40,269 bases of DNA from contig JAPPLM010000063.1 in the NCBI GenBank assembly GCA_028874195.1, forward strand, positions 6,125 to 46,393. Reading direction: 5' to 3'. The notes under the pieces are model-generated. The model made no database searches. It had not been told where the DNA came from and worked only from the letters and a program-made list of their open reading frames with translations. This DNA is from Chloroflexota bacterium (GTDB taxonomy: Bacteria > Chloroflexota > UBA11872 > VXOZ01). Below are positions 19,842 through 29,226 of this stretch, piece by piece. Within the stretch, counting starts at the first letter, position 1. Each line of letters begins with the position of its first letter. The position numbers were made by a program, and so were the translations under genes.

Positions 19842-21233
19842 ATGGAGCCGGTGATGTCTCCGAATGGAGGGGGCGCTAGAGAACGACAGGCTCTTCACGA
19901 GCGTTTCGGCAACCGCATTTCTATCAATGACGAACTCACGCGCAAGGCAGTTTCCTATCAAGGAAATCGGCGCGTCCCAGGCCTTCGTTGGATGAAATAC
20001 AAGGAAGGCTTTTCGCGTGGGCTTGTCGAGCGTTTCATCGACGAACACAAACCAACGGCCGTTCTTGACCCATTCGCTGGTATTGGCACCACACCGTTGA
20101 TTGCTGCGAGCAAGGGAAGTGCGGCGACGGGGATCGAAATAATGCCCGTTGGCGTATTGGTAGGCAACGCGATCACCCATGCTGCCAACGGGGTTTCACA
20201 GTCGGCACTCGAAGCTGCGGGCAGCGATTTGCTTGGTAGGGTGTCATTTAATGAGCCTGCTCCAGCAGAATTTGCGTTCCCTCATGTCGCTATCACGAGA
20301 GCGGCATTTCCAGAAGCGACTGAGATAGCCATCGCCAAGGCTCGACAGTTCATTTCCACCGTTGGCGATTACGCTCTGCAGGCCTTGCTGAACGTGGCAT
20401 GTATGACCATCCTGGAAGACGTAAGCTATACGCGCAAGGACGGTCAGTACCTCCGCTGGGATTATCGATCCGGTCGAACACTTAGAGCGAAAATGCACAA
20501 AGGGCCAATCCTGACGTTTGAGCACGCGCTGGAAGCGCGGCTCTTTGAAATGATCCAGGACATTGAAGTGCTGAAACAAGAGTATGGCGGCGCTAACCCT
20601 ATGTTGGTTGTTGGATCGTGTCTGGATTCGTTGCAAAAGCTGGAGGATGCGCGCTTCGACATGGCGATAACCTCGCCTCCCTACGCCAACAGATACGACT
20701 ACACGCGAACGTATGCGCTAGAACTCGCTTGGCTCGGCTTCGATCAAGGCGAATTCTTAGACCTCAGACAGCGCATGTTGTCCGCAACTGTTGAGAATAA
20801 GACGAAGCTCTTGTGGTTGCGGCAAGTGTACGACAGGAGTCCCGCCCTGTTGAATGAAGCGATCAGCATGTACCAGAATCAAGAAGCTATCCACGAAGTG
20901 CTCGCGATTCTCAATAGGCACGTCGGCGAGTTGAGCAACAGGCACGTTATCAGGTTGCTGGAAGGATACTTTTTGGAGATGGCGATAGTCGTCGCGGAAT
21001 TGGGCCGGGTAATTCGCCCAAACGGAACTGTGATCATGGTGAACGACAACGTCCAGTACCACGGCGAGGAAGTGCCGGTAGACCTCATTCTATCCGACTT
21101 CGCAGAGCAGTCAGGGTTCGCTTGTGAGAATATCTGGATGCTGCCCCGAGGCAAAGGCAACGCAAGCCAGCAGATGGGCCGTTTTGGCAGACGCGAGATC
21201 AGGAAGTGCGTGTACAGGTGGGTACGTAAGTGA
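19842..21233 (+). CDS. Site-specific DNA methyltransferase (N4/N6 amino type)
   Basis: This 463-residue amino-methyltransferase transfers a methyl from AdoMet to an exocyclic amine in DNA. Motif I is VLDPFAGIGTT (about residues 74-84), and the catalytic motif IV is TSPPY (277-281), the form common in N4-cytosine enzymes. FDMAITSPPYANRYDY and VAELGRVIRPNGTVIMVND support the fold. A long variable segment lies between the two motifs and may hold target recognition. AGGAG precedes the ATG at 19842. Its TGA overlaps the GTG of the endonuclease (GTGA), so the pair is a type II restriction-modification unit. If the endonuclease is XcyI-like, the target is probably CCCGGG. Confidence 0.88.
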   Translation: MEPVMSPNGGGARERQALHERFGNRISINDELTRKAVSYQGNRRVPGLRWMKYKEGFSRGLVERFIDEHKPTAVLDPFAGIGTTPLIAASKGSAATGIEIMPVGVLVGNAITHAANGVSQSALEAAGSDLLGRVSFNEPAPAEFAFPHVAITRAAFPEATEIAIAKARQFISTVGDYALQALLNVACMTILEDVSYTRKDGQYLRWDYRSGRTLRAKMHKGPILTFEHALEARLFEMIQDIEVLKQEYGGANPMLVVGSCLDSLQKLEDARFDMAITSPPYANRYDYTRTYALELAWLGFDQGEFLDLRQRMLSATVENKTKLLWLRQVYDRSPALLNEAISMYQNQEAIHEVLAILNRHVGELSNRHVIRLLEGYFLEMAIVVAELGRVIRPNGTVIMVNDNVQYHGEEVPVDLILSDFAEQSGFACENIWMLPRGKGNASQQMGRFGRREIRKCVYRWVRK

Positions 21234-22174
21234 CGAGCCTTGACGATGCGCGGCTTAGGTCAACGCTGATGTCGGAGAGAATCCGGCATCGGACGGATCA
21301 AGCTCTGAGAAAGCTGGTTGAGAGCTTTACCACAAGCCTGGTTTTCCCTCCAATTGAGGAACTTATGATCAGTGAACAAGCTTGGAAGCTCATAATTGAT
21401 TCAGGTATTGACCCCAAGCTAGTATTCGCCCATCCTAAACTTCTCAAGGAGTATCCACAAACATCACAGTATTACCGTGGGATAGCGCTACTGCCGCAGA
21501 AAAGAGTCGCCGACATCGCAGTGCCGGTCGCTTCTTGGGAAGATGGGACTCGCAAATCTCCTATCGGGGACGAACAGAGCTTAGAAGTTGCTCGTCTCTA
21601 TAACGCGGTTATCTCCTCAATCATCGAAGGTACGACCAATTGGACCCTGGAGAACGGCTATAGGAACATAATCGCCAATATGGGCATTGGGCTGGATGGG
21701 ACGTTTCGCAACATCATCGGTCAGGATGCTGAGAAGCTGGTGAAAACCAGGATCAAGAACTGGCTCAAGAGTGAAGGACTGATTCTGAAAGAAGATGGTT
21801 CTGGAACACAATTCGAACTGCCACGCGGCTACTGGATGCGTTTCGGTTCCGAGCCCGACGTACTGTTCCGATTTAGGACCGAGAGACAGAGTGAGGATGT
21901 CGCAACGATAGAGATTAAGGGAGGCAAAGATCCTGCGGGTGCACTGGAGCGTCTGGGTGCTATGCAGAAGAGCTTTGAGGCAACCCCCGCTAACTGCGTT
22001 AATTTTCTTGTTGTAGGCGTAGTAACCGAGGAAATGCGATCCAGACTGAATGCCATGGGCGTTGTAAAAGTATTCTTGCTTGACGAATTGGCGCGCGATG
22101 GCGAGCCCTGGACTCGCTTCCTTAACGAGGTCTTTCACTATACAGTACGAATCACCGACTCGGTCGTAACCTAG
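21230..22174 (+). CDS. Type II restriction endonuclease, XcyI-like
   Basis: This 314-residue protein is the nuclease of the R-M unit. A PD-(D/E)XK active site is visible: SEPDVLFRF (Asp210) followed by ATIEIKGGKD (Glu228, Lys230), then AGALERLGAMQKSFE. This arrangement matches what I recall of the XcyI family (CCCGGG cutters), but the assignment to XcyI rather than another type II family is from memory. The start is GTG 21230, overlapping the methyltransferase stop by 4 nt. The tight coupling would keep methylation and cleavage in step. Base composition of the pair looks less GC-rich than its flanks, consistent with acquisition. Confidence 0.75.
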   Translation: MTSLDDARLRSTLMSERIRHRTDQALRKLVESFTTSLVFPPIEELMISEQAWKLIIDSGIDPKLVFAHPKLLKEYPQTSQYYRGIALLPQKRVADIAVPVASWEDGTRKSPIGDEQSLEVARLYNAVISSIIEGTTNWTLENGYRNIIANMGIGLDGTFRNIIGQDAEKLVKTRIKNWLKSEGLILKEDGSGTQFELPRGYWMRFGSEPDVLFRFRTERQSEDVATIEIKGGKDPAGALERLGAMQKSFEATPANCVNFLVVGVVTEEMRSRLNAMGVVKVFLLDELARDGEPWTRFLNEVFHYTVRITDSVVT

Positions 22175-26684: not shown

Positions 26685-26703
26685 GTCAGACACTGAAGAT
26701 TGG

Positions 26704-26709
26704 TATACT
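26704..26709 (+). promoter_or_regulatory. Extended TGG-TATACT -10 box, possible leaderless start
   Basis: TATACT with an upstream TGG extension lies only 6 nt (GGGCGC) before the ATG at 26716. Transcription beginning 6-8 nt after the box would start at the ATG. No Shine-Dalgarno is present. Confidence 0.45.
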
Positions 26710-26715
26710 GGGCGC

Positions 26716-29226
26716 ATGACAAACAGCATCACTGCGCCGCCGCTGCAAGAGAGAAGGAGAGCGGCAATCAAACGTCTCGCACTTCTGCTTGGCTTCGCTC
26801 TGTTTCTCCTCATGCCGACATCCGTTACGGCGACGGAATGTCGATTCGTCCTCGGCTTCAAGACACTGCGCGATCTCATCGGCCACGAGATCGTCGGCGA
26901 GTGCTTGGAAAACGAACGCTACGCCGCCAACGGCAACAGCGAGCAGGAGACCACGGGCGGCTTGCTCGTCTGGCGCAAGGCCGATAACGTGACCGCCTTC
27001 ACCGACGGCTACCGTACCTGGCTCAACGGCCCCAACGGCTTGGTGCAGCGGCTCAATACCGAGCGGTTCGCATGGGAAGCCGACTATGCCCCCGGCGGCG
27101 GCATCGCCACTCCCACCCCTACGCCTTCGCCCACGCCTAGTCCAGAATCGCTCATCCGGGTGGAACAGGCGATAGCGGCCGTTCCTGATATCCAAGAACG
27201 ACCGCTACTCGCCAGCGAACTGCGGCGTCTCGCAGCAGTCTCTCAGCCAGTCTTTTGGAGTTACTTGAACCGGGCCGGAGACAGCCGGCTGGAAGCAAAT
27301 CCGCTTAGGCACACTTCTAATATAGCCCAAATCGACGAGCTAACCGCCCTGCAGATTGTCCAAATGCCCTTTATGAGCACGCCAGACCAAGGAGCTGATT
27401 ACGCGGTGCTCGAGCATGCCAGTCGCCTGGCTAGATCAGATCTGACAAGCCTGAAGCAGGTGCTTTCTCACCCAAAGCTGCATGGCGGTATTGCGGACGA
27501 CCACATAACAACCTTCGTATTGCTCGTCCTCGAACTTAGTCGCCCAGATGCAACAGCGGCAATTCAAGCCTTGCCGTGGATCCAAGATGGAGTTAGCCGG
27601 CACCCATTCAACAATATCACCAGCATCCGCGCAGACCCAGAGCGTTGGGAAGAGCACACAGTGCTAGTACTGGTGAGGATGGCTTCGAAGTCGCAGGAAG
27701 TGGTGATGGCTTTGGCGCGCAAACCTTGGCTTCAAGACGGCCTGGTTGGATGGGAACACCAGGTAATCTTTAATCTCTCCGATATTACTGATGGCGATGC
27801 GGAATCTGCCCTGCAACTTGTGGGCATGCCCTTCCTCGAAAAGTCCGCAACTGCTGACGATGCCGGCATCTTGGATGCTTTGGATGGCGTGCTTTGGTAC
27901 AGCCCTAAAAAGGAAAAGGGGCTTCGAGAACTGCTTGCTCACCCAGCGCTGCGCGGCGGAATCACCGACAAACAACGCGCTACCGTGGAATTGCTTGCTG
28001 TTTCTATGCGAACCCCTGCGATAACAGCGGCCATTGACACCTTGCCGTGGGTGCGGGATGGCATTGACGCTTCCGAAGAAAGAGCTGTCAGCATGTTGCA
28101 TGAGGCATCCCGGGGAACACGGGAGTTGCTCCCAGCCTTAACGCAGAAGTCCTGGGCACGAGACAGCCTCACTATGGATGAACTAGAGATGATTCAGATC
28201 CTTACAGGGATTTCCAGAAACTTCCCACACCCGGACGAACTGGCGGCACTTACCATTCTTGAAATGCCCTTCTTGGCTGACGAAGACTTTGACGCGGCAG
28301 ACTCCGCTGCAATGAGATCTCTCAGTGGCTTGCACTCAGAGTTCGGTGGGAATTATCTGCGGCAGGTCTTATCTCATCCGACTTTGAGTGGCGGGATTGC
28401 AGATGCGAACAGAAGCCGTGTTTCAGTTCTGGCTTCGGTCGTCAGCGAGCGTCCCCACCTATTGGATGTCCTGTTGGACCCTATACAGACTTCAGTCGAG
28501 GAACGGGCGATTGTGCTGCCTAGAGCAGGTGAGATGTTGCTTGCGGTCGTCCACACCAGGCCTGGGAAGTTCCGCACTATGGACATCCTAGAAGACACGG
28601 TGCGTGCGCAGGAAGAGTTCATGCTCGTGGCCTTTCCAAGAAAATTCGTTGGCTTGCTGGTAGCGGACGCCAATCCAGCCGGCGGAACAGGAGGGCAAAT
28701 GGGCATTCCCACAATCGATCCCGGAATGGAAGAGAACATTGCCATTATTGCGCACGAGGTAGCTCATACGTACTGGTCATTTAGCGCTAGCTGGATTAGT
28801 GAAGGTGGCGCGGAAGTGCTGCGTGCAGTGACGGAAGGGGCATCTATTAACGTGCGCCATGCGCAACTTTCGTTGTGTCACCTGGCCGATAGTCTCTCAG
28901 AGATAGAAAGAATCGAATTTGAAGCAATACGAAGTGGGAAAGCTAAACCCTATTCTTACCTTACGGGAAACTGTCCGTACGTTTTGGGATTAGGGCTCTT
29001 TTCGGACCTGTACGAGAGACTGGGTGACGGGGCATTCCGACAAGGGTTCCGCAACCTCTACATAAAGCTAAAGAATGATGAACATGAAGACGTGTGCTAC
29101 GGCGTGGGGCGATCCGTATGCTACGTGAAAGCCGCCTTTGTGACTGACGCTTCCCCCGCGGCTGCGGCGATTGCCGAGCCAATCATCAACCGCTGGTATT
29201 ATGGCTTGGAAAGCGGCGCTCAGTAA
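26716..29226 (+). CDS. Secreted protein with three helical repeat units and a C-terminal HExxH metallopeptidase domain
   Basis: From ATG 26716 the protein is 836 residues. A basic n-region and hydrophobic signal (RLALLLGFALFLLMP, about 20-34) precede a domain with two cysteines in CRFVLGFKTLRDLIGHEIVGEC (about 43-64). A PTPTPSPTPSP linker follows at about 133-145. Three related units of about 150 residues come next. Each has a MPFM or MPFL motif (residues 217, 371, 517), then LSHPxLxGGI or LAHPALRGGI. Units 1 and 2 also have LPWxxDG and KPWLQDGL or KSWARDSL. The C-terminal domain has HEVAH at 680-684 and WISEGGAE with Glu696 or Glu700 as a third ligand, as in gluzincin (peptidase MA-like) enzymes. 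The substrate is unknown. The ORF upstream to 26344 overlaps the divergent gene. Confidence 0.8.
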   Translation: MTNSITAPPLQERRRAAIKRLALLLGFALFLLMPTSVTATECRFVLGFKTLRDLIGHEIVGECLENERYAANGNSEQETTGGLLVWRKADNVTAFTDGYRTWLNGPNGLVQRLNTERFAWEADYAPGGGIATPTPTPSPTPSPESLIRVEQAIAAVPDIQERPLLASELRRLAAVSQPVFWSYLNRAGDSRLEANPLRHTSNIAQIDELTALQIVQMPFMSTPDQGADYAVLEHASRLARSDLTSLKQVLSHPKLHGGIADDHITTFVLLVLELSRPDATAAIQALPWIQDGVSRHPFNNITSIRADPERWEEHTVLVLVRMASKSQEVVMALARKPWLQDGLVGWEHQVIFNLSDITDGDAESALQLVGMPFLEKSATADDAGILDALDGVLWYSPKKEKGLRELLAHPALRGGITDKQRATVELLAVSMRTPAITAAIDTLPWVRDGIDASEERAVSMLHEASRGTRELLPALTQKSWARDSLTMDELEMIQILTGISRNFPHPDELAALTILEMPFLADEDFDAADSAAMRSLSGLHSEFGGNYLRQVLSHPTLSGGIADANRSRVSVLASVVSERPHLLDVLLDPIQTSVEERAIVLPRAGEMLLAVVHTRPGKFRTMDILEDTVRAQEEFMLVAFPRKFVGLLVADANPAGGTGGQMGIPTIDPGMEENIAIIAHEVAHTYWSFSASWISEGGAEVLRAVTEGASINVRHAQLSLCHLADSLSEIERIEFEAIRSGKAKPYSYLTGNCPYVLGLGLFSDLYERLGDGAFRQGFRNLYIKLKNDEHEDVCYGVGRSVCYVKAAFVTDASPAAAAIAEPIINRWYYGLESGAQ

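Follow-up and report, generated by a model that had tools for sequence, protein, structure and literature searches.

The window analysed here, a stretch of 40,269 nucleotides from a Chloroflexota bacterium, contains on its forward strand a reading frame for an 836-aa protein. From the N- to the C-terminus, the protein consists of a signal peptide, a module with two cysteines (residues ~41-125), a Pro/Thr linker, a helical region (146-590) and a candidate metallopeptidase domain (593-832). An earlier note, made from the sequence alone, gave the frame, its coordinates and its length correctly. The features are listed below, with the evidence for each in brackets.

26716..29226, forward strand: whole coding sequence, 836 aa (start codon uncertain)
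26716..26832, forward strand: N-terminal extension and Sec-type signal peptide, residues 1-39 (sequence; predicted helix 10-31; aligned with signal peptides of paralogues)
26836..27090, forward strand: N-terminal module ECRFVLGFKTLRDLIG...RLNTERFAWE, residues 41-125 (14 copies in the genome, on otherwise different proteins)
27091..27150, forward strand: Gly/Thr/Pro linker, residues 126-145 (sequence; pLDDT low up to residue 139)
27151..28485, forward strand: predicted alpha-solenoid of about eleven ~35-aa units, residues 146-590 (motif spacings, unit profiles, AlphaFold model, shuffles, unit-unit profile comparison)
27331..27792, forward strand: super-repeat 1, with MPF, HP, LPW and KPW units, residues 206-359 (motif spacings, unit profile comparison)
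27793..28230, forward strand: super-repeat 2, with MPF, HP, LPW and KSW units, residues 360-505 (motif spacings, unit profile comparison)
28231..28449, forward strand: half super-repeat 3, with MPF and HP units only, residues 506-578 (motif spacings, unit profile comparison)
28492..29211, forward strand: candidate M1-like gluzincin catalytic domain, residues 593-832 (family alignment, profile search, AlphaFold models, Foldseek)
28753..28767, forward strand: HEVAH, residues 680-684, with putative zinc ligands His680 and His684 and putative general base Glu681 (conservation, alignment to M1)
28801..28803, forward strand: Glu696 in WISEGGAE, putative third zinc ligand (conservation, alignment to M1)
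28876..28878, forward strand: Cys721, almost invariant and probably disulphide-bonded to Cys753 (conservation)
28972..28974, forward strand: Cys753, invariant (conservation)
28978..28980, forward strand: Tyr755 in CPYVLG, aligned with the proton-donor tyrosine of M1, YxxG (conservation, alignment to M1)

The gene is surrounded by a restriction-modification pair, Ldh_2, TauE, a solute-binding protein and RmuC. The pair, at 19842-22174, consists of a DNA methylase and an XcyI-type restriction endonuclease. The genomic neighbours gave no clue to function, and nothing in them pointed to a surface protease or to a host or matrix role, both of which had been suggested earlier.

The signal peptide and the Pro/Thr linker are visible in this sequence and in the paralogues, in agreement with the earlier description of the protein as secreted. 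Several paralogues start at an ATGAARCG codon. The aligned codon in this gene is ATC (26767-26769; region 26701-26769), and GGAG at 26756-26759 precedes it. The ATG of the reported start lies 51 nt upstream of the ATC and 6 nt after TGGTATACT. Three possibilities could account for this: leaderless translation from 26716, a rare ATC start, or a base error.

The N-terminal module has the consensus ECxFxLGFKTLRDLIG..VGECLEN...TTGGLLVWRKADN.TAFTDGYRTWINGPNGL.QRLN.ERF.WE (L016-L024; 26836-27090 in this gene). In 17 copies compared, drawn from two genomes of the genus, conservation of the module is 72%. Its other carriers in the same genome are proteins with LRR, GSDH, NHL or other metallopeptidase-like parts. 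The module was observed in 36 of 201 genomes of the phylum, with up to 20 copies per genome. Pfam and PDB searches with it produced no significant match. Homologues from family f3 (L062-L072) have a different conserved N-terminal module, GCLFTITGxDTPDPDDGYAVTN...GYPISQRW...QAFQKVILQW; homology of the two modules is unsupported (hhalign probability 0.5%). A link to LGFP is likewise unsupported, with a best E-value of 0.16 in one member.

Helical repeat region

The earlier note described three units of about 150 residues, marked by motifs that recur in the same order. The motifs and their order are as described. MPF is found at residues 217, 371 and 517 (the spacings of 154 and 146 also hold), HPxLxGG at 252, 409 and 554, LPWxxDG at 286 and 443, and K(P/S)WxxD at 336 and 478; an extra LPW-like unit at residue 157 precedes the first super-repeat. 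There are 10 motif matches in residues 141-575, compared with 0 or 1 in 2000 composition-preserving shuffles.

However, the basic repeating unit measures about 35 residues. Successive motifs are separated by 35, 34, 50, 35, 38, 34, 35, 39 and 37 residues, and MPF, HPxLxGG, LPWxxDG and KPWxxDG occupy the same position within successive ~35-residue helical units. In the AlphaFold prediction, made with 24 sequences, nearly every unit is predicted to form a short helix, a short turn at the motif and a long helix. Unit profiles made from relatives score 10-35 bits on the matching units of this protein, whereas the best score in 200 shuffles is about 5 bits. When unit profiles are compared with each other, same-flavour units match with 97-98% hhalign probability and LPW units match KPW units with about 89-96%. 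The MPF and HP flavours match other flavours weakly (below 20%), mostly in register.

The order of the four flavours recurs every 142-157 residues over the eleven units. Since the unit profiles match by flavour and the motifs mark units of about 35 aa, the period of 150 residues is genuine and reflects a super-repeat of four units; since its third copy contains MPF and HP units only, it is present in about 2.5 copies and not in three. The number of recognisable units varies among relatives. The long helical scaffold proposed earlier thus corresponds to a predicted alpha-solenoid. No relative of the solenoid was found by sequence in PDB, and HEAT, ARM or TPR repeat profiles from Pfam matched none of the 24 members.

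Catalytic domain

The HEVAH...WISEGGAE site is intact at residues 680-700. Searches with the single protein gave no match in Pfam, NCBIfam or PDB, nor in PADLOC, PHROGs or plasmids, consistent with the earlier statement that it belongs to no named family. However, a profile of the catalytic domain, made from an alignment of 13 sequences in which His680, Glu681, His684, Glu696, Tyr755, Cys721 and Cys753 are all invariant, does reach the M1 aminopeptidases ERAP2, ERAP1, IRAP and APN in PDB, with E-values from 1e-7 (ERAP2) to about 2e-3. The alignment to these enzymes spans the region from HExxH to the YxxG tyrosine.

The AlphaFold models are confident over the solenoid and the catalytic domain. 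With the isolated domain model, Foldseek yielded 153 matches at E <= 0.001, and among the matches listed all are M1 enzymes; the probability for this predicted model to match M1 structures is 1.00. TM-scores over the catalytic domain are about 0.45-0.55, and the domain is thus a distant relative of M1. As in other gluzincins of clan MA(E), HExxH is followed by a downstream glutamate in the position of the third ligand, and a thermolysin-like alpha/beta catalytic fold is predicted. The earlier note's suggestion of a metallopeptidase, for which it had named a gluzincin-like fold in structure predictions as a check, is supported by the models, for which M1 structures rank on top, and by the retention of the catalytic residues in all nine members of the protein's clade.

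Function and family

We propose, with a probability of roughly 0.7, that the protein is an exported zinc metallopeptidase with an M1-like gluzincin domain and a solenoid body, with cleavage more likely of the endo type, that processes extracellular protein. Firstly, the Sec signal peptide would export the protein from the cell. Secondly, the N-terminal module, common to many exported proteins of the genome, may have an attachment role, probably holding the protein at the cell surface or matrix through the flexible Pro/Thr linker. The solenoid, as the body of the protein, may present or select protein substrates. Finally, judging from conservation and the alignment to M1, His680, His684 and Glu696 would bind zinc, Glu681 would activate water, and Tyr755 would stabilise the transition state. 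The likely role is digestion or processing of extracellular protein.

The M1 signature comprises HEXXHX18E and GXMEN, located 22-38 residues upstream of HEXXH (PMC2241622). GXMEN is absent from our protein: the equivalent strand carries GTGGQ, and intact relatives have no glutamate there, the equivalent position having been assigned visually and from the order of strands, in a region of lower confidence with many gaps. As GXMEN holds the free amino terminus of the substrate in M1 aminopeptidases, the protein more likely cuts inside proteins or holds the substrate end otherwise, and an endopeptidase preference may be inferred. Alternatively, it could be an aminopeptidase like true M1, with other residues replacing GXMEN and the solenoid serving as a lid on the active site, the part played in ERAP1 by the C-terminal helical domain. 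M1 aminopeptidases are indeed the closest folds and sequence profiles, and relatives without GXMEN, such as aminopeptidase O and short actinobacterial proteins, are catalogued inside M1 (PMC2241622). However, apart from the lack of a conserved glutamate at the GXMEN position, the solenoid flanks the catalytic domain on the opposite, N-terminal side, the M1 domain order is not kept, and ahead of the catalytic core the AlphaFold model has just two strands (593-613) and no full M1 N-terminal beta-domain. We therefore consider an aminopeptidase unlikely and retain the exported endo-type peptidase.

Of the 400 Chloroflexota genomes sampled, 20 carry the catalytic domain; 19 of these 20 belong to f1 and f3, two families of the class that includes this genome. 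A scan of genome contigs with the single protein gave no match; with alignment A3 it gave ten loci, mostly through the N-terminal module. Paralogues, which the earlier note had proposed to look for, are present in the same genome. Frames on contigs C33 (623 aa) and C26 (533 aa) have intact sites. In a third paralogue, on C32 (L016 3361-5180, reverse strand), two overlapping frames of 448 and 176 aa each hold part of the peptidase site, which probably reflects a frameshift or an assembly error.

Among 33 sequences covering the zinc site, this protein included, the site is full in 22. His680, Glu681 and His684, whose conservation had been suggested as a check, are kept together with the rest of the site in all nine members of the protein's own clade. 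The refuting observation named in the earlier note, homologues that routinely lack the HExxH residues, applies in part: 11 homologues have degenerate sites, but all of them fall outside this clade. On the tree, the state of the zinc site requires four changes, at least two of which are forced by well supported branches. With open frames as long as about 730-826 aa, the degenerate homologues look like retained pseudo-enzymes that lost the zinc site at least twice. Loci L069, L072 and L074-L080 are such long homologues without the zinc site, with the cysteines mostly kept. As about one third of the relatives, mostly distant ones, have lost the site, catalysis is not the sole thing kept in the wider family.

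This could mean that the protein acts chiefly at the surface, in binding or as a structural component, and that its peptidase domain is incidental or decaying. The mostly full-length frames and retained cysteines of the degenerate homologues fit this possibility, as does a 611 aa frame on C32 that has the N-terminal module and repeats and no peptidase. However, the clade has kept every zinc-site residue although its members are only about 38-46% identical to our protein in the catalytic domain, which makes such a role distinctly improbable; the protein is probably an active exported peptidase. The named relatives come from uncultured Chloroflexi MAGs, e.g. SB0662_bin_44, and no paper on the family or on these MAGs was found in the literature. 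Action on a eukaryotic host, for instance on sponge matrix or immune proteins, is highly doubtful: hosts can be targets of exported proteases with repeat scaffolds, and some of these MAGs are presumably sponge-derived, but no tool gave a host link and the gene has the neighbours listed above.

The protein is best read as belonging to a family that is new and lineage-restricted, has an unusual scaffold and falls within a known clan. A broader scenario is offered tentatively. In a new gluzincin family that hardly occurs beyond one Chloroflexota class, the four-flavour solenoid would choose substrates, an aminopeptidase N-type fold would have become an exported endopeptidase by loss of GXMEN, and side branches would have become pseudo-enzymes. 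The analysis adds an unannotated family of putative exported peptidases to the uncultured Chloroflexota, with a repeat type unrecognised in Pfam or PDB. The family may serve as a test case for an M1-like fold working without the motif that anchors the N-terminus. The analysis also brings to light an N-terminal module, widespread and without a name, on many exported proteins of the phylum.

Relation to known systems

The predicted helical units of about 35 aa resemble those of two-helix alpha-solenoids such as HEAT, ARM and TAL effectors; the TAL effector dHax3 (4osm) is a weak fold match to the model (probability 0.60). However, the repeat has no match among PDB sequences or Pfam repeats, and is distinguished by its PWxxDG type signature and its four-flavour super-repeat.

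A short spacing from HExxH to EG is known from BSP, the peptidase of plants and bacteria (PF04450). BSP weakly matched four relatives (best E 0.0069) and did not match our protein, and the Foldseek matches listed for the isolated domain are M1, not BSP. The best fold match of the full model is a short M1-like enzyme, the two-domain M1 peptidase of Deinococcus radiodurans (PDB 6a8z, 6ifg). It is about 15% identical to our protein, and has neither the 35-aa solenoid nor the N-terminal module.

The M1 aminopeptidases (ERAP1/2, APN, LTA4H; MEROPS M1, Pfam PF01433) share with the protein the thermolysin-like fold, HExxH, the downstream glutamate ligand, the YxxG tyrosine and the helices that follow. 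The equivalent of Tyr755 is kept in 19 of the 22 sequences with an intact zinc site. The PF01433 model itself did not match the protein and matched some relatives weakly (best E 0.0035). The zinc site is spaced as HEXXH-x11-E in this protein and in most intact relatives, compared with x18 in M1. As the third ligand follows at x11 rather than x18 and GXMEN is missing, we regard the protein as a gluzincin that resembles M1 but does not belong to family M1 proper.
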